Below, in pieces: positions 28,786 through 40,450 of a DNA stretch of 41,460 bases. The notes under the pieces are model-generated. The model saw nothing but the letters and a program-made list of their open reading frames with translations. It searched no databases and had not been told where the DNA came from. The DNA is from Geminicoccaceae bacterium. GTDB lineage: Bacteria > Pseudomonadota > Alphaproteobacteria > Geminicoccales > Geminicoccaceae. The DNA lies in assembly GCA_025062095.1 (NCBI GenBank), contig JANXAZ010000030.1:1-41460 (forward strand). The letters are read 5' to 3'. Positions within the stretch are counted from its first letter, which is position 1, and each line of letters starts with the position of its first letter. The position numbers and the translations under genes were made by a program.

Positions 28786-30162
28786 TCACCCGCCCGGCTC
28801 GGCTTTCGCGGCCGGGTGCGGATGCGCGACCGACAGCGTCCGGCACGGCTCGAGGTCGTGCAGGCGGAGCACGGTCCCGTCGGGCCAGCGGATGTCGATC
28901 CGCTCCACCCGCGTGCACGACCCGAGCCCGAAATGGGCCACGGGCTCGCCGTTGCCCCGGCTCCCGCCGACGATCCGCCATCGGCTGTGCCCGCGCGCGA
29001 CCAGGCGCACGATCGCCCCTCGCGCCGGGGCTCCCGACGCGGTGCGCGGAGCGATACGGATCCAGGCGTTGTCGTTTTCTTCCGCGCGATAACACGCGAG
29101 CCCGCGCCCGCCCGCGCGCCCGACGAGGAGCTCGAGCCTGCCGTCGCCGTCGAGATCGGCCGCCAACGCCGCCGTGGGTCGGCTCGTGGGCTCGCAGGCG
29201 TCCCCCGGGTCGAGCGGCCGCCAGCCGCGCTCGCGGAAACCCAGGAGCCGATTGGGCTCTCCCGCGTTCGCGAGGAAGATCTCTTCGAAGCCGTCGTTGT
29301 CGAGATCGGCGACGAGCAGGGCCGCGGCCGCCGAGCCGCGGGCGAGGCTCGGCGGGGCGGCGTTGCGCCAGAGCCCGTCCGCCCCCCGCAGCCACAGAAG
29401 ATGCGCCCCGCGCCGGCGCAGACACAGAAGACCCGTCGCCGCGGCGCCGTCGGCGGCGAGAAAGGCGGCGTCCACCGCATCGAGATCGGGGACCCCGAGG
29501 CCGAGCGTCTCGGCGCATTCGGCGAAGCGGCCTCCGCCCTGCGGCTCGAACCAGGCGCTCGGGCCGCATCCCGCGCCCACGAAGAGGGACAGTCCGGGAC
29601 CGAGAGCGGGTCCTTGAGCGATCACGCGGGCATCGAGGATTTCGTCGAGGCCGGCGGAGGCCGCGCGATCGTGGAGACGGCCCTCGGGCCCGCACTCGAC
29701 GAGCCGGCTCGGCCCGCGCGGGCCGGCGGCGAGAAAGCCGTAACGCCCCGAACCTTCCCGATCGAGCGCGAGGACGGAGCAACTCGACGGGGCGGCGGGC
29801 CCGGCGAACGTCGGATCGTCGGCCAAGAGATCGCGAAAGCCGCCGCGGTCGCGATCGAACAGCCGATCGGCGCGCGCCGCTTCGGGACGCACCGGATCGC
29901 CGTTGGCGATCCAGATCTCCTCGACCCCGTCGCCGTCGAGATCGCCACAGGCGATCGCGCGCGCGAGACCGAACGGATCGGCGAGCTCGGTGGGAGGCTC
30001 GGCGACCAGCCGTCCCGCGCGCGCGAGCAGCAAGCGATTGGGCCCCGCGCGAACGCCCACGACCAACCCGAGCCCTCCTTCCGGGCCGAGGTCGGCGACG
30101 GCGAGCGCGGTCGCGCTCGCGATCTCGAGATCCCCGAGGAGATCGTCCGCGCGCTCGAGCAC
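28786..30162 (-). CDS. CRTAC1-like FG-GAP/VCBS repeat protein with C-terminal ASPIC/UnbV domain
   Basis: This 458-residue protein is built of FG-GAP-like beta-propeller repeats. Three retain clear calcium-binding loops: DLDGDGVEE, DLDNDGFEE and DLDGDGRLE. Several others are degenerate (VADLGPEGG, ALDREGSG). Residues from about 375 form an ASPIC/UnbV domain with HFGLGSCTRVERIDIRWPDG. Family members are usually extracellular, but no signal peptide is present: the product starts directly with LERADDLLGDLEIASATALAVADL. The GTG at 30162 has AAGGGA just upstream and lies 9 bp after a small two-TM protein gene. The function is unknown; binding or adhesion is typical of the fold. Confidence 0.82.
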   Translation of the reverse strand: MLERADDLLGDLEIASATALAVADLGPEGGLGLVVGVRAGPNRLLLARAGRLVAEPPTELADPFGLARAIACGDLDGDGVEEIWIANGDPVRPEAARADRLFDRDRGGFRDLLADDPTFAGPAAPSSCSVLALDREGSGRYGFLAAGPRGPSRLVECGPEGRLHDRAASAGLDEILDARVIAQGPALGPGLSLFVGAGCGPSAWFEPQGGGRFAECAETLGLGVPDLDAVDAAFLAADGAAATGLLCLRRRGAHLLWLRGADGLWRNAAPPSLARGSAAAALLVADLDNDGFEEIFLANAGEPNRLLGFRERGWRPLDPGDACEPTSRPTAALAADLDGDGRLELLVGRAGGRGLACYRAEENDNAWIRIAPRTASGAPARGAIVRLVARGHSRWRIVGGSRGNGEPVAHFGLGSCTRVERIDIRWPDGTVLRLHDLEPCRTLSVAHPHPAAKAEPGG

Positions 30163-30171
30163 GCGTCCCTT

Positions 30172-30399
30172 TCACTCGCGACCGACGCGATCGTCGAAGC
30201 CGCGCCGGTGACTGAAGAACACGAGCGCCATCAACCCCACGCCGAGGATCGAGGTCACCGCCACCCCGCCGATGAGGGCCAACCAACCCTCGGGGCCGAT
30301 GCTCACCCCCTCGAGCTCGCGCCAGAGCCGCAACGCGACGACGCCGCTCGCGGCGAGCAAGAGCAGGAGCACCGCGATCACCAGCCAGCCGCCGCGCAC
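30172..30399 (-). CDS. Small two-TM membrane protein of unknown function
   Basis: This 75-residue protein has two hydrophobic helices (about residues 4-25 and 38-61) joined by a short loop, ELEGVSIGPEG. A charged tail, FFSHRRGFDDRVGRE, is probably cytoplasmic. I recognise no characterised family, though small proteins with a similar SRRGYDD-like tail occur in related bacteria. The GTG at 30399 has GGGGAG 8 bp upstream. Its stop codon is 9 bp before the FG-GAP protein gene, so the two should be co-expressed and may interact. Confidence 0.65.
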   Translation of the reverse strand: MRGGWLVIAVLLLLLAASGVVALRLWRELEGVSIGPEGWLALIGGVAVTSILGVGLMALVFFSHRRGFDDRVGRE

Positions 30400-30487
30400 G
30401 ACGTCGCTCCCCGGCGCCGAGCCTTGTCCTCGTCGCGCGAACAAGGCTAGCTCTCCCCCGGCATTTGTCCATCGCGGAACGCCGATC

Positions 30488-31636
30488 TTGTCCGCTCCGA
30501 TCCGCCGCACGACGGACGTGATCGCCGAACTCTTGCCTCTCGAGGGTCGCCGCGTGCTCGAGGCGGGCTGCGGGGAAGGGGTGCTCGTGGCCTGGATGCG
30601 GCGTCGGGGCGCCGAGGCGTTCGGGCTCGAGACCTCCGTGCCGGTGTTGCGCCGGGCACGGGAACGGCTCGGAAGCTCGGGGCTGGTCGCGGCCCGGGGA
30701 GAAGCCCTGCCCTTCGCGGCGTGCAGCGTCGAGGGCGTGCTCTGGCACAACGCGTTCCATCACCTCGCGCCCGCGGCGATGGTCGAGGCCTTGACCGAGG
30801 CCTCGCGCGTGCTCGTGCCCGAAGGAAGGCTGCTCGTGCTCGAACCCCTTCCCGAGGACGAATATTTCGAACTCGTGCGCCCGCTCGAGGACGAAACCGC
30901 GATTCGGGCGCTCGCCCGCGAGGTTCTCGAGCGCGCCGTCGATCTCGGCTTCGCGCGGGTGGCGCGCAGTTCGTACGTCCAACTCGTGCTGCGCCGGTCG
31001 CTCGACGAGCTCTTCACCGCGCTCCTCGCCGCCGATCCGGCGCGGGCCGCGCGCCTTCTTGAAGCCCGCTCGGAGATCGCCAGCGCCTTCGCACGTCTGG
31101 GACAGCCGACGGCCGAAGGCCGGGTCTTCCGCCAACCGATGCTCGCCCTCGCCTTCGCGCGACGCGAAGAGGGACCGCGGATCGCGATCGCTCGCGCGCG
31201 AAGCGAACGCGATGCGGTCTTCGCCCTCAGACGGCGCGTTTTCATCGAGGAACAAGGCGTGCCCCCGGACGAAGAGCTCGATGCCTTCGACGCGTGCGCC
31301 GAACACCTCCTCGCCCGTGTCGGCGACGAGGTCGTGGGGACCTTGCGCTGGCGGCCGATCGATGATGCCGGCACGGTGAAGCTCGAGCGGGTGGCGGTGC
31401 GGCACGACCATCGCGGCCGCGGCGTCGCGCGCGCTCTTCTGCGATTCGCGCTCGCCCGCATCGACGGCCGCGGCCTGGGGCCGGTGGTCCTGCACGCGCA
31501 AGCGCACGCGCTCGACGTCTACCGCGGCCACGGGTTCGAACCGCGCGGCGAGGAGTTTCGCGAAGCCGGGATCCCCCATCGGCGCATGGAGCGCCCGCTG
31601 CATCCGCTCGCCGCCGCGGTCCGGGCGCTCGCCTAG
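30488..31636 (+). CDS. Fusion of a class I SAM methyltransferase and a GNAT acetyltransferase
   Basis: This 382-residue protein joins two enzyme domains. Residues about 1-225 form a type 11 methyltransferase with motif I VLEAGCGEG (23-31), an acidic residue at the end of strand 2 (GLETS) and WHNAFHHL in the motif IV region. Residues about 231-375 form a GNAT domain with RRRVFIEEQGVP, as in ElaA/YjcF-type acetyltransferases, and the acetyl-CoA loop RHDHRGRGVARAL (305-317). Neither substrate can be read. The start is uncertain: TTG at 30488 is chosen because it lies just before the conserved core, while GTG at about 30518 is an alternative. It is divergent from the small membrane protein gene. 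Confidence 0.8.
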   Translation: MSAPIRRTTDVIAELLPLEGRRVLEAGCGEGVLVAWMRRRGAEAFGLETSVPVLRRARERLGSSGLVAARGEALPFAACSVEGVLWHNAFHHLAPAAMVEALTEASRVLVPEGRLLVLEPLPEDEYFELVRPLEDETAIRALAREVLERAVDLGFARVARSSYVQLVLRRSLDELFTALLAADPARAARLLEARSEIASAFARLGQPTAEGRVFRQPMLALAFARREEGPRIAIARARSERDAVFALRRRVFIEEQGVPPDEELDAFDACAEHLLARVGDEVVGTLRWRPIDDAGTVKLERVAVRHDHRGRGVARALLRFALARIDGRGLGPVVLHAQAHALDVYRGHGFEPRGEEFREAGIPHRRMERPLHPLAAAVRALA

Positions 31637-31760: not shown

Positions 31761-33173
31761 ATGACCGCAGCCGCATCCGCGACGAGCCCTTGCGCCTCGG
31801 CCGCCGCCGAGGCTCCCCTCCTCGTTCCCCTCGAAGACGCGCTCTTGCGCACCGATCTGCGCCTGGAAGCGGCGCTCTCGCTCTTGCGCCGCGCACCGCT
31901 GGCCTTGTTGCGGTGGCTCGCGAGCCCCGGGCGCGAGCCGATCGTGGCGCGCGCACGCGCCGAAGGCGCGGGCCCCGAGCCTTCGCTCCTGCCGCTCGAA
32001 CCCGCCCTCGTGGCCTATCTCTTCGATCAACACGCGCGCGGCCGGCGGCTGATCCTCTCGGTGCGGGAGGATCTCGCCTCGGGTCGGGCGATCGCCGATC
32101 GGCTCGGGATCTTCGAAGCGGTCCGCGAGGCGAACGCGGAAAGCGACGTCGCCGAAGGAGCGCGTTTCGCCCTCGTCGTGCGGTCGAAAGTCGACGATCC
32201 GCGCGCGCGTTCCGCCAACGGCCTGGTCGTCTTGGGCTCGCGGCCCCCTGCCCGCACGCGCTCGCCCGTCGAGGCCCTGCTCCCGGTCGAAAAGGCGGGG
32301 CTCCGACGCTGGCTCGAAGCCCTCCGGCTTCATCAGTGGACGAAGAACCTGCTCGTCTTCTTGCCCGTGGTTCTCGCCGGGCCGCTTTCCGGCGTCTCCG
32401 ACTGGGTTCGTGCGCTCGTCGCTTTTCTCGTCGTCGGGCTTCTCGCCTCGGCCGGCTATCTCGTGAACGACCTTCTCGACCTCGACGCCGATCGCCGGCA
32501 CGAGAGCAAGTGCACGCGGCCTTTCGCTTCGGGGGCTTTGCCTCTCGCTGCCGGCATCGCATCGGTTCCGATCCTGGTCGGTCTGGCCGCCGCGTCGAGC
32601 ACCCTCCTGCCCTCCCGCTTCGCGCTCGCCGCCGGATCCTATTTCTTCGCCAGTCTCGCTTATTCTTTTTGGCTTAAGCACGTGGCCTTCCTCGACGTGA
32701 TCAGCCTGGGCGGCCTTTTCACCGTGCGCGTGATCGCCGGTGCTTTCGCGATCGCGGCACCGGTTTCTTATTGGCTGTTGACCTTCTCGATGTTCTTGTT
32801 CTTGAGCCTGGCCGTGCTCAAACGCTACGCCGAACTCGATCAGCTCGCGCGCAGAGGCGGAACCGAACTCGTCGATCGCGGCTATTCCACGCTCGACCTG
32901 CCCCTTCTGGTGAGCCTCGGGGTGGCTTCGGGTGTCGCATCGACGGTGATCTTCGTCGTCTATCTGGTCACCGAACATTTCCCGCGCGCGCTCTACAGCC
33001 GCCCGGGCTGGCTCTGGCTCGCCTTTCCCGTTCTCCTCTATTGGCTCGTGCGCGCCTGGCGGCTCGCCGTGCACGGTCGTATGAACGAGGACCCGGTGCT
33101 CTTCGCGCTGCGCGATCCGGTCTCGCGAGCCATGGTCGTGATGGTCCTCGGGGTCCTGTTCCTCGCATGGTGA
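31761..33173 (+). CDS. UbiA-family prenyltransferase with degenerate N-terminal HAD domain; probable polyprenyl-phosphate phosphoribosyltransferase
   Basis: This 470-residue protein has two parts. Residues about 19-165 align with the HAD-like domain often fused to UbiA proteins, but the catalytic DLDGT motif reads PLEDA (23-27) and the later GNSxAD-type motif is absent, so it is probably inactive. Residues about 180-470 form the membrane prenyltransferase, with LRLHQWTKNLLVFLPV, the Mg-diphosphate site NDLLDLDAD (236-244) and the second site region near YSFWLKHVAFLDVISLGG. Closest known roles are decaprenyl-phosphate phosphoribosyltransferases (Rv3806c type), which take PRPP. This is supported by the adjacent DprE1- and DprE2-like genes, which overlap in sequence with it. 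Confidence 0.85.
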   Translation: MTAAASATSPCASAAAEAPLLVPLEDALLRTDLRLEAALSLLRRAPLALLRWLASPGREPIVARARAEGAGPEPSLLPLEPALVAYLFDQHARGRRLILSVREDLASGRAIADRLGIFEAVREANAESDVAEGARFALVVRSKVDDPRARSANGLVVLGSRPPARTRSPVEALLPVEKAGLRRWLEALRLHQWTKNLLVFLPVVLAGPLSGVSDWVRALVAFLVVGLLASAGYLVNDLLDLDADRRHESKCTRPFASGALPLAAGIASVPILVGLAAASSTLLPSRFALAAGSYFFASLAYSFWLKHVAFLDVISLGGLFTVRVIAGAFAIAAPVSYWLLTFSMFLFLSLAVLKRYAELDQLARRGGTELVDRGYSTLDLPLLVSLGVASGVASTVIFVVYLVTEHFPRALYSRPGWLWLAFPVLLYWLVRAWRLAVHGRMNEDPVLFALRDPVSRAMVVMVLGVLFLAW

Positions 33174-34549
33174 GCGCGGTCGCCTACAGCACCGGCCATC
33201 GCGCCTGGGGGCGGGTGCATCGCTTCGCGCACCGGGTGGTACGGCCGACGAGCCCGCACGATGCCCGTCGTGCGCTCGCCGCGCGCGAAGGCGCGCCCGT
33301 CCTCGCCTTCGGCCTCGGCCGCTCGTACGGCGACTGTTGCCTGAACCCCGAAGGACTCCTGCTCGAGACGCGCGGGCTCGACCGACTGTTGGCGTTCGAC
33401 GGCGAAAGCGGCGTGGTGCACTGCGAAGCGGGGGCGAGCCTGGCCGATCTCCTCGCCACCGTCGTCGGCAGGCCGGCTCCGGACGGCGGGGTGTGGTTCC
33501 TGCCGGTGAGCCCGGGGACGCGTTTCGTCACCATCGGCGGAGCGATCGCCAACGACGTGCACGGCAAGAACCACGAAACGGCGGGCAGCTTCGGCCGCTA
33601 TCTCGTCGACTTTCGGCTCCTGCGCTCGGACGGGAGGATCTTGCGCTGCGCGCCGGACGAGAACCCCGAACTTTTCTGCGCCACGATCGGCGGGCTCGGG
33701 CTGACCGGGCTCGTGCTCGAGGCGCGCTTGCGTCTGGTCTCGGTCCCCGGCCTGTGGCTTGAGCTCGAGGAGGTGCGCTTCGAGGATCTCGAGGGCTTCT
33801 TTCGCCTGGCCGAAGAATCGAAAGAGTGGACCTACACCGTGGCCTGGGTCGACTGTCTGGCGCGCGGTCGCGCGCTCGGACGCGGCATCTTCGGCCGCGC
33901 GCGCCACCTCCGCGATCCCCGCCCCGTCCCCGCCCCCGCGCCGCCGCGGTTGCGCGTGCCCTTCGATCCGCCCTTTTCGCCCTTGAACCGGTTCTCCTTG
34001 CAGTTGTTCAACGCCCTTCTCTTCCGGAGACTGGGTCGCGGTGGCCGGCGGCACCGTGTGCGCCCCTATCACGAGTTGTTGTATCCTCTCGATTCCATCG
34101 GCGCGTGGAACCGTCTTTATGGCGCGCGAGGCTTTTACCAATATCAGTGCGTAGTCCCGCGCGAAGGCGCCTTTCGTGCGATCGCGCGGCTCCTGGACGC
34201 GATCGCGGCATCGGGTCAGGGCTCGTTTCTCGCCGTTCTCAAGACCATGGGCGATCTGCCCTCGCCCGGATGGCTCTCGTTCCCGATGCCCGGTGCGACG
34301 CTCGCCCTCGATTTCCCGAACCGCGGCGAAGCGACGCTCGCGCTTTTCGACCGCCTCGATCGGATCGTCCTCGACGCCGGCGGACGGCTCTATCCCGCCA
34401 AAGACGGACGCATGCCGGCACCCGTCTTCCGCGCCGGCTACCCCCGCTGGCCGCGGTTCGCCGAACTGAAGGATCCGGTTTTCTCCTCGGCCTTCTGGCG
34501 CCGGGTCGCGGAAGGCGCGACGGAGCCCGCGCGCGCGAGGGCGGCATGA
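33167..34549 (+). CDS. DprE1-like FAD-dependent oxidase (polyprenylphosphoryl-ribose 2'-oxidase)
   Basis: This 460-residue protein has a VAO/PCMH-type FAD-binding domain with GLGRSYGDCCLN and PGTRFVTIGGAIANDVHGKNHETAG-type sequence around residues 116-140; the GKNH motif is characteristic of DprE1. The substrate domain has FYQYQCVVP (323-331) and LYPAKDGRM (408-416), whose Lys412 matches the essential lysine of mycobacterial DprE1. The position of the benzothiazinone-reactive Cys is Ala380. In mycobacteria DprE1 oxidises decaprenylphosphoryl-ribose to the 2-keto form. The ATG at 33167 overlaps the prenyltransferase stop codon (ATGGTGA); the GTG three bases later is an alternative. It overlaps the next gene by 4 bases. 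Confidence 0.87.
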   Translation: MVSAVAYSTGHRAWGRVHRFAHRVVRPTSPHDARRALAAREGAPVLAFGLGRSYGDCCLNPEGLLLETRGLDRLLAFDGESGVVHCEAGASLADLLATVVGRPAPDGGVWFLPVSPGTRFVTIGGAIANDVHGKNHETAGSFGRYLVDFRLLRSDGRILRCAPDENPELFCATIGGLGLTGLVLEARLRLVSVPGLWLELEEVRFEDLEGFFRLAEESKEWTYTVAWVDCLARGRALGRGIFGRARHLRDPRPVPAPAPPRLRVPFDPPFSPLNRFSLQLFNALLFRRLGRGGRRHRVRPYHELLYPLDSIGAWNRLYGARGFYQYQCVVPREGAFRAIARLLDAIAASGQGSFLAVLKTMGDLPSPGWLSFPMPGATLALDFPNRGEATLALFDRLDRIVLDAGGRLYPAKDGRMPAPVFRAGYPRWPRFAELKDPVFSSAFWRRVAEGATEPARARAA

Positions 34550-35304
34550 CGAACGAACGCGAAGGGCTCAGGGTCGCGGTCTTCGGTGCGACCTCGGCGA
34601 TCGCGCAAGCCGCGCTGCGCCTTTGGGCGGCGCGCGGGGCGGAGCTGTTCCTCGTCGCCCGCGACCGCGAGCGGCTCGATCGCATCGCCGCCGATCTCGC
34701 GCTTCGGGGCGCGCGTCGGGTCGAGGCCTTCGTCGCCGATCTCGACGACTCTTCCGTGCTCGGGCGGGTGCTCGAAGCCATGGATGCGGCGCTCGGGGTT
34801 CCCGACGTAGCTCTCGTCGCCTTCGGCACGCTCGGAGACCAGACGCGCGCAGCGCGCGATCCGGAGGCCGCCCGCCGGACCCTCACGACCAATTTCGTGA
34901 GCCCGGCGGTGCTGCTGACCGCGCTCGCTGCGCGCTTCGAGAAAGCGGGCGCGGGATGTCTGGCGGCGATCACCTCGGTGGCGGGCGATCGCGGACGGGC
35001 GAGCAATTACGTCTACGGCGCCGCCAAAGGAGGGCTCCAGACGTTCCTCGAGGGACTGCGTCACCGCTTCGCCGGGACGGGGGTGCGCGTGCTCGACATC
35101 CGTCCCGGTCCCGTGGATACGCCCATGACCGCGCACATGCCCAAAAGCGGGCTTCCCTGGGCTTCGGCCGAACGCGTCGCGGCCGACATCCTGCGCGCCG
35201 TCGAGCGCGGGCGCTCGGTGCTCTACACGCCCTGGTTCTGGCGCTGGATCATGCTCGTCCTTCGCCATCTGCCGCAGCCGCTCTTCCATCGACTGCGGCT
35301 GTGA
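34546..35304 (+). CDS. DprE2-like short-chain dehydrogenase/reductase
   Basis: This 252-residue SDR has a nucleotide-binding motif GATSAIAQA (14-22), the catalytic Ser144 in AITSVAG, and Tyr157-xxx-Lys161 in YVYGAAKGG. DIRPGPVDTPMT is the usual cofactor-side loop. Its C-terminus has a hydrophobic stretch, WFWRWIMLVLRHLPQPLF, seen in DprE2-type enzymes and suited to a membrane-bound lipid substrate. It should reduce the 2-keto intermediate made by the DprE1-like partner, giving the arabino epimer. The ATGA overlap with the preceding gene indicates translational coupling. Other SDR functions cannot be excluded by sequence alone, but the context is strong. Confidence 0.87.
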   Translation: MTNEREGLRVAVFGATSAIAQAALRLWAARGAELFLVARDRERLDRIAADLALRGARRVEAFVADLDDSSVLGRVLEAMDAALGVPDVALVAFGTLGDQTRAARDPEAARRTLTTNFVSPAVLLTALAARFEKAGAGCLAAITSVAGDRGRASNYVYGAAKGGLQTFLEGLRHRFAGTGVRVLDIRPGPVDTPMTAHMPKSGLPWASAERVAADILRAVERGRSVLYTPWFWRWIMLVLRHLPQPLFHRLRL

Positions 35305-36604: not shown

Positions 36605-38035
36605 ATGCCGACATCCCCGACTCTGCTGTGGGGGCTCGCCTTCGCGGCGGGCATGCTCAGGCTCGCCGTGGCGCTCGCCACCGTCGACGTCCCGGGCGAC
36701 GGACCGACTCGTGCCGCTCTCGGTTGGCAGTGGTTGCAGGAGCCGCGGCTCGTCCGCGACGGCAGCTGGCTGCCCTTCGGCGAGATCTCGGTGGGCCTTT
36801 CGGCCCTTCTCGTCCGCGATCCCAAATGGGCGGCACGGGTCCTCTCGCTCGTCACCGGCACGGCGACGGTTCCGCTCTTCGCGAGTCTGGCAGCATGCGT
36901 CTTCGGGCCGGCGGTCGGGCTCGCCGCCGCTGCCGCACTCGCCTTTCTGCCGATCCACGTGACCCTTTCGGCGAGTTCGCTCGTCGATGCGCCCGCGCTT
37001 TTCTTCACGCTGCTCGCGCTGCGGCTCGGCCTGGCTCCGTCCGACGGGCGCTCCCGGCCCGTCTTTTTTCTCGGCACCGCGCTCGCGGGCGGTATCGCGT
37101 GCGGCCTGCGCTACGAGGCCTGGGTGCTTCTCCTCCTCCTCCCCCTCCACCGCGCCTTCGCGCGCCGCCGCCCCGCCGAAGCGGTGCTCTTGTTCGCGCT
37201 TCTTTCGCCTCTGCCGCTGTTCTGGACGTTCACCGCGCTCGGAGGACCTTCCGGGCTTTATGCGGCTTTTCGCAAAGTCGCGGAGAGCGGAGCGAGTATC
37301 GGCGGCCAGGCCGTACCGCTCGGGGAGGCGGTGGCGATCGCGCTCGGCGAAACCGCGGTCCTCGCAGGGCCGGCGACGCTTCCGCTCGCCGCTTGCGGGC
37401 TCCTGCTCGCGCTCGGGACGGCCGGAAAGGCAGAGGCGGCCGAGCGCCTGCTCTGGGTTTCCTTCTGGCTCCTCGCGCTTCTTCTCGTGTTCCTGCTCGC
37501 GCGCGAGCGCGGGCCGAGTTTCGTCGACCGCTACGCGCTTTCCGCGGCCGTTTTCGCCCTGCCCCTCGCCTTTTGGGCTTTGGAGCCGCTTCTCGGCGAA
37601 CGAACGCGCGCTGTCCTGCTCGTCGCCGCGCTCGTCGGCTCGACGGGCATCGCGACCTGGATCGCGCGACCGGAACTCTATCTCGCCCGCCGCTTCCCGC
37701 CCGAAATCGTCGGTCTCGCCGGCTGGCTCGACGAGAAACGCGCGCCCGGAACCGCGGTCCTGTTCACCCGCGCCGGTTGGCTTCCCACCTACGTGCCTCT
37801 GTTCCACTCGATGCGCCGCGACGATTACCGGATCGTCTCGTGGTACCTGCAGGACGCGGCGCTGCGCGCTTTCCTCGTCCGCCGGCGGCCGCAGATCCTG
37901 ATCACCCGCGAGGGCGACGAGGCCTTCCTCGCGCGGATCCGCGCGGCCGGAGCGGAACCGGGCGGAGTGCTCGCCCGCTTCGGAAAGCTCGAGGTCCGCG
38001 AGCTGCGCTTGCCGGGGCCGCCGCCGCGCGGGTAG
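36605..38035 (+). CDS. GT-C fold membrane glycosyltransferase (ArnT/PMT-like)
   Basis: This 476-residue polytopic protein has about ten membrane helices and a soluble C-terminal part (about 375-476). The first periplasmic loop contains DVPGDGPTRAALGWQWLQEP, with acidic residues where GT-C enzymes bind the lipid-phosphate sugar. Later segments such as LVDAPALFFTLLALRLGL and RYEAWVLLLLLPLHR follow the Dpm1-dependent glycosyltransferase pattern. GT-C enzymes transfer sugars from polyprenyl-phosphate carriers on the outer face of the inner membrane, so it could use the lipid predicted from the DprE-like operon 1.3 kb upstream. That link is inference. The ATG at 36605 is preferred over the long upstream frame. 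Confidence 0.8.
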   Translation: MPTSPTLLWGLAFAAGMLRLAVALATVDVPGDGPTRAALGWQWLQEPRLVRDGSWLPFGEISVGLSALLVRDPKWAARVLSLVTGTATVPLFASLAACVFGPAVGLAAAAALAFLPIHVTLSASSLVDAPALFFTLLALRLGLAPSDGRSRPVFFLGTALAGGIACGLRYEAWVLLLLLPLHRAFARRRPAEAVLLFALLSPLPLFWTFTALGGPSGLYAAFRKVAESGASIGGQAVPLGEAVAIALGETAVLAGPATLPLAACGLLLALGTAGKAEAAERLLWVSFWLLALLLVFLLARERGPSFVDRYALSAAVFALPLAFWALEPLLGERTRAVLLVAALVGSTGIATWIARPELYLARRFPPEIVGLAGWLDEKRAPGTAVLFTRAGWLPTYVPLFHSMRRDDYRIVSWYLQDAALRAFLVRRRPQILITREGDEAFLARIRAAGAEPGGVLARFGKLEVRELRLPGPPPRG

Positions 38036-38063: not shown

Positions 38064-39503
38064 GTGCGCCGCGACGAGCTCGTCCTCGCCGCCGATCTCG
38101 GCGGCAGCGCCCTCAAGCTCGGTCTGGTCGATGTGCGCGGCAGGCTCGTGGCCGCCACCGCGCGCGCTCTTCTCGACCGCGAACCCGAACCGGGAGCGGT
38201 CGAGCAGGACGCCGAGAGCTGGTGGTCCGCGTTCGTCGATCTCGCTCGCGCGCTCGCCAGCGGGCGAAGCGACGCGATCGCGGGCATCGCCCTCACCGGG
38301 GCCACCCGGTGCTTCCTGCTCGTTGATCGCGCCGGCGTTCCGCTCGCCCCCGCTCTCATGGTCCGCGACCGCAGGGCCGCCGCGGAGGCGGAGGACCTCG
38401 CGCAGCGGCTCTCGGCGGAGACGGGCCCGATCGACGCCTCGCATCCGCTCGCCCGGCTCGCGTGGTTCGCCCGACGCGCCCCGGAACGCCTCCAGCGTGC
38501 GGCGCATTTGCTCGAACCCGCGGACTTCCTCGCGTTTCGGCTGACGGGCGAGGTCGGTCGCGATCCCGTCCGGGCTCGGCGCGTCGCCGGGGATGCCGTT
38601 CGCGAGCTGGCGCATCGTCTCGCTCTGCCCCTCGATCTGTTCCCGCCCGTTCGGCCGCTCGGGGAGATCCTGGGCCGTCTCCGCCCCGAGCCCGCCCGGC
38701 TTCTCGGGCTCGCGAGCGGCGTGCCGGTCGTCCTCGCCCCCATGGATGCGTGGTGCGCGAGCTTCGGCGTCGGTGCCCTTCGACCGGGTCGCGCCTATGC
38801 GAGCCTCGGAAGCTCTCTCGTCGCGGGATTGATCGTCGATCGGCCGATCACCGCTCCGGGTCTTCCGAGCCCGATGTGGGCCGAGGGGCTGTGGCATCTG
38901 GGCGGGCCCGGGCGGACGGGCGGGGCGGTCCTCGACCGGTTCGCGCGCCTTTTCGGGTGTACGACGGGAGAGTTCGTCGCCGAGGCCGAACGCGAACCCG
39001 CCGATGCGGACGCCCCCTTCTGCCATCCCTGGCCGGACGGAGAGCGCGTGCCCTGGCGCGCTCCGGCGTTGCGGGCGCGGTTGTGGAACCTCGGTCCCGA
39101 GACGACGCGCGGAGCGATCGCACTCGCGGTGCTCGAGGGGCTCGCCTTCTGGGTTCGTCTCGTGCTCGAGCGGGCGGAGGTCGCCGCCGGTCTGCGCGCC
39201 GAGACCGTACGGATCTCGGGCGGGCTTTGCGCCTCGTCCCGACTCTGTCGCCTTCTCGCCGAGGCGCTCGGACGTCGCCTTCTGCGCTTTCCGGCGCGCG
39301 AGGGCGCGCTCCTCGGCGCGGCGGGTCTGGCGCTGCGCGCGCTCGGTGTGTTTCCCGATCTCGACGCGTCGAGCGAAGCCCTCGAGCGCGCGCAGTCTCC
39401 GGAGCCGATCGAACCCGACCCGGAGGGCGTCGCGCGCCGCGCGCGGCGCTTCGCGTGCTGGTACCAGGAACTCGGATGCGCTGCGAGCGACGGGGAGGTG
39501 TGA
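38064..39503 (+). CDS. FGGY-family carbohydrate kinase
   Basis: This 479-residue ATP-dependent sugar kinase has the two-domain FGGY fold. The phosphate-1 segment LAADLGGSALKLGLVD is at the N-terminus, the substrate-binding region is near MDAWCASFGVGAL, and the adenosine site is ISGGLCASSRLCRLLAEALG with REGALLGAAGLAL. The family includes xylulose, ribulose, glycerol, rhamnulose and fucose kinases; the substrate cannot be told here. The start is GTG at 38064. Its stop codon overlaps the permease start by one base (TGATG), so the kinase probably phosphorylates the sugar brought in by the following ABC importer. Confidence 0.86.
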   Translation: MRRDELVLAADLGGSALKLGLVDVRGRLVAATARALLDREPEPGAVEQDAESWWSAFVDLARALASGRSDAIAGIALTGATRCFLLVDRAGVPLAPALMVRDRRAAAEAEDLAQRLSAETGPIDASHPLARLAWFARRAPERLQRAAHLLEPADFLAFRLTGEVGRDPVRARRVAGDAVRELAHRLALPLDLFPPVRPLGEILGRLRPEPARLLGLASGVPVVLAPMDAWCASFGVGALRPGRAYASLGSSLVAGLIVDRPITAPGLPSPMWAEGLWHLGGPGRTGGAVLDRFARLFGCTTGEFVAEAEREPADADAPFCHPWPDGERVPWRAPALRARLWNLGPETTRGAIALAVLEGLAFWVRLVLERAEVAAGLRAETVRISGGLCASSRLCRLLAEALGRRLLRFPAREGALLGAAGLALRALGVFPDLDASSEALERAQSPEPIEPDPEGVARRARRFACWYQELGCAASDGEV

Positions 39504-40450
39504 TGCGCGCGCAGCTCGCCCGCTTCGGGACGGTGATCGCGGCACTCGCGCTCTTCGCGGCCCTCGCTCTTTTCGCACCGAACTTCACCGCCCCGGCGAA
39601 TCTCCTCAACATCGTCAAACAGGCGAGTTATCTCGCGATCCTCGCCATCGGCTTCACGATCGCTCTTCTTGCGGGCGAGCTCGACCTCTCCGTGGGTCAG
39701 GTCGCAACGCTCGCCTCGGTGCTCTGCGCCGCGCTCGTCTTCTCCGGCCAACCCTGGCCGATCGCGGCCCTCGCCGGGCTCCTCGGGGCGCTGCTTTGCG
39801 GGGTCGCCAACGCGGTGGCGGTGACCCGGTTCAAAATCCCCTCCTTGATCGCCACGCTCGCGACCGGGGCCATCGCCACCGGCTGCGCGTTCCTGGTCAC
39901 CGGCGGCGTGGCCTTCGTCGGCCGCTTTCCGCGAGCCTTCGTGAGCCTCGGTCGCGGCACGCTCGGGCCCGTGCCGTTGCCGATCGTCTGGCTTTCGGTG
40001 CTGTTCCTGGCCGCTCTCTTTTTCGTCAAGCGCACGCGCACGGGAGCGGCGTTGACCGCCTGTGGCGAAGCGCCCGAAGCGGCGCGCCTGGTCGGCATCG
40101 ACGTCGCCCGCATGAAGGCCCTGGGGCTGCTGTTGTCGGCTCTGTGCGCCGGGCTGTGCGGGCTCGTCCTGACCGCGGCGCTCGCCTCCTCCTCGCCGAC
40201 GATCGCCAGCGAGTTCCTGATGCGGGCGATCGCCGCGGTGCTCTTGGGCATGACCACGATCGAGCCGGGGCGCCCCAATCTCTTCGGCACGCTTCTGGGC
40301 ACCGTGCTCATCGCCGGGCTCGCCAACGGGCTCACGCTTCTGGGCTTTCCGTATTACGTGCAAGACATCGCCCTCGGGCTCATCATGCTCGCTTCCGTGG
40401 GCTTCGCCGCGCGCTTTCTCGAGGAAGCGGCCTTCGGTGGGGCGCGCTGA
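39503..40450 (+). CDS. Ribose-type sugar ABC importer permease (RbsC family)
   Basis: This 315-residue permease of the CUT2 (ribose/xylose/galactoside) class has about eight to ten membrane helices. Diagnostic stretches are NLLNIVKQASYLAILAIG, ALLAGELDLSVGQVATLASV, ARLVGIDVARMKALGLLLSALCAG (the ATPase-coupling loop) and FGTLLGTVLIAGLANGLTLLG near the end. It would dimerise and pair with a double-domain ATPase, which is not present on this side and may lie beyond the right edge. GGGGAGG lies just before the ATG at 39503. It is downstream of and overlapping with the FGGY kinase. Confidence 0.9.
   Translation: MRAQLARFGTVIAALALFAALALFAPNFTAPANLLNIVKQASYLAILAIGFTIALLAGELDLSVGQVATLASVLCAALVFSGQPWPIAALAGLLGALLCGVANAVAVTRFKIPSLIATLATGAIATGCAFLVTGGVAFVGRFPRAFVSLGRGTLGPVPLPIVWLSVLFLAALFFVKRTRTGAALTACGEAPEAARLVGIDVARMKALGLLLSALCAGLCGLVLTAALASSSPTIASEFLMRAIAAVLLGMTTIEPGRPNLFGTLLGTVLIAGLANGLTLLGFPYYVQDIALGLIMLASVGFAARFLEEAAFGGAR

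Follow-up and report, generated by a model that had tools for sequence, protein, structure and literature searches.

Lipid-linked arabinose routes of the kind considered here serve the decoration of cell-surface sugars, and one has already been published for Gram-negative bacteria as the noeCHO genes (PMC2443382, PMC5080398). In Pseudomonas, an ortholog of the polyprenyl-phosphate phosphoribosyltransferase (PPPRS) supplies the D-arabinofuranose (D-Araf) of type IV pilin (PMC12369383; PMC11127046). Candidate Araf systems carry DprE1/E2 homologues and candidate xylofuranose (Xylf) systems an ORF13-type short-chain dehydrogenase/reductase (SDR), and in the published scheme the 5-phosphate is removed before epimerisation, with DprE1/E2 acting on the dephosphorylated lipid (Kelly et al. 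2024, PMC11127046). In the Citrobacter protein ORF15, a HAD domain ahead of UbiA removes this phosphate after transfer (PMC11127046). Here we examine the window, a contig of 41,460 nucleotides (C67; JANXAZ010000030.1) from the Geminicoccaceae assembly GCA_025062095.1 (3.3 Mb, 143 contigs, completeness given as 99.57%, G+C 0.70). At 31761–35304 its plus strand bears three overlapping genes, whose products are a UbiA-type PPPRS, an oxidase resembling DprE1, and an SDR resembling DprE2. Since Gram-negative examples of the route have been published, the operon belongs to an already known kind of pathway; its variant feature, as read from alignments, is the genus-wide loss of the motifs of the fused phosphatase. 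We consider it probable that the operon makes a polyprenyl-phosphate-linked D-Araf donor, that its fused phosphoribose phosphatase (PRP) is dead, and that the phosphate is removed elsewhere. By analogy, the donor would likely serve arabinofuranosylation.

A first-pass annotation of this DNA described three overlapping plus-strand genes joined by ATGGTGA and ATGA, and the open reading frame (ORF) coordinates bear this out (overlaps at 33167–33173 and 34546–34549). Its motifs, NDLLDLDAD, HGKNH with a matching Lys, YxxxK, and a hydrophobic C-terminal tail, are all found in the translations. Every feature that it gave for the genes stands, but it overlooked a degenerate HAD domain, which makes up approximately residues 1–180 of the UbiA gene product. 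This product is 470 residues long, has NDLLDLDAD at residues 236–244, and matches NCBIfam PRK08238 (NF006088, "UbiA family prenyltransferase") over residues 13–469 with 422 bits against a cut-off of 351. At E 0.001 the only PDB sequence matches are the mycobacterial decaprenyl-phosphate phosphoribosyltransferase entries 8j8j (9e-26) and 8j8k (5e-18). An AlphaFold2 model of the whole protein (mean predicted local distance difference test score, pLDDT, 90.1) places its UbiA fold nearest to 8j8j (Z 28.1, root-mean-square deviation 2.8, 283 residues aligned), followed by 8j8k (Z 24.8), with other UbiA proteins at 22.8 or less among the matches listed. Mutational work on Citrobacter ORF15 probed the loop II motif NDxxDxxxD and the R..E of loop IV (PMC11127046), and the counterparts of the mutated residues are kept here (N236, D237, D240, D244, R355, E358). 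Three NCBIfam models for decaprenyl-phosphate phosphoribosyltransferase match the C-terminal part below their cut-offs (145 of 234, 126 of 207, and 101 of 474 bits); the fusion of genome G013, from outside the genus, scores 131, 118, and 87 bits on the same models. A quinone-type UbiA was rejected, as such NCBIfam models reach 20–32 bits against 422 and the fold lies nearest to 8j8j.

The second gene starts at its ATG or at the GTG at 33170, and its product has HGKNH, the AKD lysine, and an FAD-binding domain. On the NCBIfam DprE1 model (NF053785) it scores 347 bits, short of the equivalog cut-off discussed below, and the next family reaches 45, a gap on which a lactone-oxidase type was rejected. 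DprE1 entries are its sole strong PDB matches (E 4e-71; next family 1e-8). Separately, its TLALDFP stretch aligns an Ala with the Cys of NVCVDFP in mycobacterial DprE1, which we take to be C387 of the Mycobacterium tuberculosis enzyme, the covalent target of nitrobenzothiazinones; the window oxidase would therefore be expected to be insensitive to these compounds. The SDR carries YxxxK as YVYGAAK, a hydrophobic stretch near the C-terminus, and the conserved C-terminal sequence YTPWFWRWIM. Searched as a 251-residue query from the codon after the first, it best matches PRK07102 (NF005489, "SDR family oxidoreductase"; 287 bits, cut-off 267), then the DprE2 model (NF053786) with 185 bits, the next model reaching 129.

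An alignment scan of GTDB contigs with DprE1 gave at least 583 relatives, the best 80 of which were taken as loci and span several phyla. Among the 63 of these loci that hold all three proteins, UbiA, DprE1, and DprE2 are adjacent in that order in 51. Pairwise distances among the three proteins are correlated (r 0.65, 0.55, and 0.78 over 52 rows), with none of 999 permutations as high. The families, PDB matches, structure model, and recurrent gene order give good support to the PPPRS/DprE1/DprE2 route to an arabinose-lipid donor that the first-pass annotation had proposed. The lipid sugar might instead be another pentose, if the oxidase and the SDR act together at another position, since the position of epimerisation is unreadable from sequence and xylofuranose systems exist; however, it is the ORF13-type SDR that accompanies candidate Xylf systems and the DprE1/E2 homologues that accompany Araf ones (PMC11127046), and we regard a sugar other than arabinose as quite improbable.

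Judged by sequence, the first gene is a HAD–UbiA fusion whose N-terminal domain corresponds to the PRP domain that strips the 5-phosphate in Citrobacter ORF15. In the alignments its loop I reads PLEDA where most others have DLDGT, and loops II–IV are lost too; loop I in genus mates reads SLEEG, VEAEA, or PLEGA. The Asp pair is missing in all six genomes of the genus, where the window and G002–G005 span the whole domain and the G001 sequence is partial. Outside the genus the pair is kept in 67 of the 69 distinct fusions sampled. These come from two sources, overlapping in one fusion (L182 = L091). The first comprises 52 long fusions, three from the family and 49 from the 80 loci, of which 66 had a UbiA match and 14 none; the 17 of the 66 without a long N-terminus include some truncated where their contig ends and some UbiA genes on the minus strand, which may be other paralogues. 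The Asp pair is present in 50 of these 52, the exceptions being a Lysobacterales metagenome-assembled genome (MAG; L093, PLEYS) and a Gemmatimonadetes MAG (L124). The second is a sample of 385 genomes of the class, 20 of which match at E 1e-60 or better; all 18 outside the genus have both Asp residues. Intact loop I variants also occur (DLDKT in L075, DLDRT in L105 and L133, and DLDGA in L186 and L187, which belong to one genus). As a side observation, L093 (4691–5998) shows a loop I replacement similar to that of the window, PLLIPLEYS against PLLVPLEDA, which is apparently convergent on the tree.

In a tree of the UbiA parts (57 rows), the genus forms one clade (99/95), and the seven dead domains force three changes, also three on the starred branches alone. 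On this tree, predicted loss of the fused phosphatase's activity occurs three or more times, and in one case it spans a genus. In ten genus pairs the HAD domain is more diverged than predicted from 1225 intact pairs (z −1.9 to −5.2), the pairs not being independent of one another. PF12710 (E 0.001) detects the HAD domain in the fusions of both G013 and G027 and none at the six genus loci, and the window domain is 36% identical to that of G013. For the whole-protein model, Foldseek gives HAD chains from rank 16 (E 0.008), and no HAD fold is among the matches listed by VIA, where the UbiA part takes the rows; the HAD domain was therefore modelled alone. That AlphaFold2 model (pLDDT 90.9) has HAD-superfamily chains as its 50 listed matches (Z 9.2–11.0), and it may lean towards an intact fold because its alignment holds 29 intact and two degenerate domains. 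The sequence evidence that the PRP domain is catalytically dead across the genus is strong. Among the papers listed from the open-licence literature we found no report of a dead PRP domain, with no search wording aimed at degeneracy. The first-pass annotation had credited the operon with the three main activities of the mycobacterial conversion; the transferase, oxidase, and reductase assignments are well supported, but dephosphorylation was left out, and its domain is present here without catalytic motifs.

With the HAD active-site motifs lost, the 5-phosphate step must be done another way or skipped. A search of the six genus genomes with the intact G013 PRP domain matched only the dead domain, with no second homologue. 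PAP2 (PF01569), the family to which we take the separate mycobacterial phosphatase Rv3807c to belong, has no match in the window's own genome and is present in one of the six genus genomes, with none in G013 and one in G027 (control, 11 of 14); its absence says little, because G013, with an intact PRP, also lacks it. In L117 and on the short contig L087, the UbiA gene beside DprE1 lacks a HAD part, and inspection by eye of the ORFs listed revealed no phosphatase; L100 and L115 have a separate HAD gene after DprE2 (Pfam on L100). A stand-alone HAD of this last kind was sought by tblastn against 12 loci with PF12710 matches, a part of all such loci, and nothing was found. HAD-type proteins are abundant in the window's own genome (12 PF12710 matches), and the simplest candidate for the step is therefore a general phosphatase. 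With the D18A mutant of ORF15, some dephosphorylated product was still formed (PMC11127046), so that loss of PRP catalysis can be tolerated. Most likely, then, a general phosphatase encoded elsewhere would remove the 5-phosphate.

If the step were skipped, DprE1/DprE2 would act on polyprenyl-phosphate-ribose-5-phosphate and phosphorylated arabinose would be transferred. The donor would then be polyprenyl-phosphate arabinose-5-phosphate, the product a phospho-arabinose decoration, and the degenerate HAD a retained substrate-binding or regulatory part. The genus-wide dead domain, the lack of a PRP paralogue in the six genomes, and the scarcity of PAP2 fit such a scheme, but the published DprE1/E2 scheme uses a dephosphorylated lipid (PMC11127046), and the residual activity of D18A, the 12 PF12710 matches, and the missing PAP2 of G013 all argue against it. 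We judge both the skipped step and the phospho-arabinose donor very improbable.

The preferred pathway, with dephosphorylation by an enzyme encoded elsewhere, would by analogy with described enzymes run as follows. The UbiA domain would transfer 5-phosphoribose from phosphoribosyl pyrophosphate onto polyprenyl phosphate, and after dephosphorylation by the general phosphatase the oxidase would carry out an FAD-dependent oxidation at ribose C2, the SDR then reducing the 2-keto sugar to arabinose. The degenerate HAD is retained as an N-terminal domain and changes faster than expected. The donor would be flipped, perhaps via one of two GtrA-type proteins encoded elsewhere, and a GT-C enzyme would transfer arabinose from it to a surface glycan.

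Candidates for these last two steps were sought in the window and in related genomes. The genes adjoining the operon in the window include no recognised flippase, and the MATE family was not searched genome-wide. UPF0104 (PF03706) lies after DprE2 in G004 and G013 and after the UbiA gene in G027; within the genus it is beside the operon in G004 only, and five of the six genomes give nothing above its cut-off. Each of the six has two GtrA genes, on other contigs or approximately 100 kb or more from the operon, and neither G013 nor G027 has any. Among the 80 loci, a cluster with a PF03706 tested member occurs in 19, and one with a GtrA tested member in 12. Downstream of the operon, a GT-C-like gene falls just short of the PMT_2 cut-off and has no NCBIfam match; it was found in four of 60 genomes including its own, all within the genus (four of six), and not in G001 or G003. 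An Emb-type arabinosyltransferase was rejected, with none in eight genomes and a positive control in Corynebacterium. As a side observation, a GT2-like gene stands within approximately 3 kb of an opposite-strand GtrA gene in G005 (L171, 3465–7232) and G000 (L169, 7438–9669), and in L171 a PMT_2-type protein scoring 34.5 bits is encoded between the two; these groups are perhaps a separate Gtr-type glycosylation cluster.

Several results weigh against an intact arabinose-donor operon. The oxidase misses the NF053785 equivalog cut-off (347 of 500 bits) and the SDR that of NF053786 (185 of 250), 12 of the 63 complete loci deviate from the UbiA–DprE1–DprE2 order, the operon holds no flippase or proven arabinosyltransferase, and the PRP and PAP2 searches of the six genus genomes did not identify a serving 5-phosphatase. 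In G003 the upstream side, UbiA, and DprE1 are kept, DprE2 is broken, and the genes that come next in the window are all missing after it. On NF053785, DprE1 proteins encoded in the operons of G013, Luteibacter, and Streptomyces also stay below 500 (346, 359, and 379 bits), and the G013 SDR scores 189 on NF053786. The G003 DprE2 (L031, 9650–9911) stops at approximately 90 residues and runs in-frame into a lyase-like C-terminus; by eye, an ABC-F-like ATPase comes next, and the arrangement may be a deletion fusion or an assembly chimera.

Such features might mean that the pathway is decaying in the genus, the dead domain being one sign of it, and that donor synthesis has ceased or the donor finds little use. 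The loss of PRP motifs in six of six genomes, the lack of a UPF0104 match above cut-off in five of them, and the broken DprE2 and lost downstream order of G003 would fit. However, genus mates keep the motifs of UbiA (57–72% identical, G002–G005), DprE1 (69–76%, G002–G005), and DprE2 (67–79%, G002, G004, and G005), the gene overlaps are retained in the window, and the G003 break may itself be an assembly or deletion event. Decay of the pathway is in our view unlikely, and a working D-Araf donor pathway with a dead fused PRP is the reading we retain.

Table 1. Features of the operon and of the downstream transferase candidate, in window coordinates.
Feature	Position	Strand	Evidence
HAD–UbiA fusion: degenerate PRP and UbiA-type PPPRS (residues ~180–470)	31761..33173	+	NF006088 422 bits; PDB 8j8j/8j8k
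Degenerate HAD (PRP) domain	31803..32294	+	Alignments; loop I PLEDA for DLDGT, loops II–IV lost
DprE1-like oxidase, FAD-dependent (460 aa with ATG start)	33167..34549	+	NF053785 347 bits; PDB DprE1 E 4e-71
DprE2-like SDR, 252 aa	34546..35304	+	NF005489 287 bits (cut-off 267); NF053786 185 (cut-off 250); YxxxK
GT-C-like membrane protein with its ATG at 36605, tentative arabinosyltransferase candidate	36605..38035	+	PMT_2 25.8 bits, cut-off 26.1

The order from an FG-GAP protein to an ATP-binding cassette (ABC) permease is kept in G002, G004, and G005, with UPF0104 as an extra gene in G004, and the G001 contig terminates inside the UbiA gene. The neighboring genes were rejected as a wider conserved system, as none of nine other window genes (including HtpG and a helicase) recur across the 80 loci. 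The ORF immediately upstream of the operon (30272–31636) combines S-adenosylmethionine (SAM) methyltransferase and GNAT acetyltransferase domains, and beside the operon on the minus strand lies an FG-GAP and ASPIC/UnbV repeat protein (28786–30162); both occupy this location in the other five genomes of the genus as well. At 38064–40450, an FGGY sugar kinase is succeeded by an ABC permease of ribose/arabinose type, a pair that might recycle a pentose and that G002, G004, and G005 have at the corresponding position. The window also holds an LptE-like gene, which bears on the LPS that the first-pass annotation presumed for this organism.

With this operon, a lineage represented by assemblies alone would join the Gram-negative arabinose-lipid makers. 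It would also provide a natural case of a fused phosphatase gone dead, pointing to another 5-phosphatase or to a phosphate-keeping donor, and the phosphate question is testable in membranes by the published assay. Among the three-component pentofuranose systems, ORF15 of Citrobacter youngae O1 likewise has an N-terminal HAD fused to a UbiA PPPRS, and its tested UbiA residues are matched in the window, a likeness drawn from the published description rather than from an alignment with ORF15. The PRP is active there, whereas its motifs are lost here, and that cluster has a MATE flippase and a GT136 enzyme, neither of which was recognised at the window operon. The mycobacterial decaprenylphosphoryl-arabinose pathway shares a homologous transferase (Rv3806c) and oxidase (DprE1) by PDB match, and the window SDR resembles DprE2 by its NCBIfam model, below cut-off. 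Mycobacteria have the separate phosphatase Rv3807c, in contrast to the window's own genome, which has neither a PAP2 match nor an Emb-type arabinosyltransferase. The noeC–noeH–noeO genes of Azorhizobium and Rhizobium, which the first-pass annotation had named as a precedent for arabinosylated Nod factors and which the literature confirms as such (PMC2443382, PMC5080398), provide three like steps in a Gram-negative, compared here by description and not by sequence; unlike the window, they form a symbiosis operon with the transferase noeP. In Pseudomonas paraeruginosa (PSPA7_6245–6251), again likened by description and not by sequence, the PPPRS is free of a PRP domain and the phosphatase is a separate protein.

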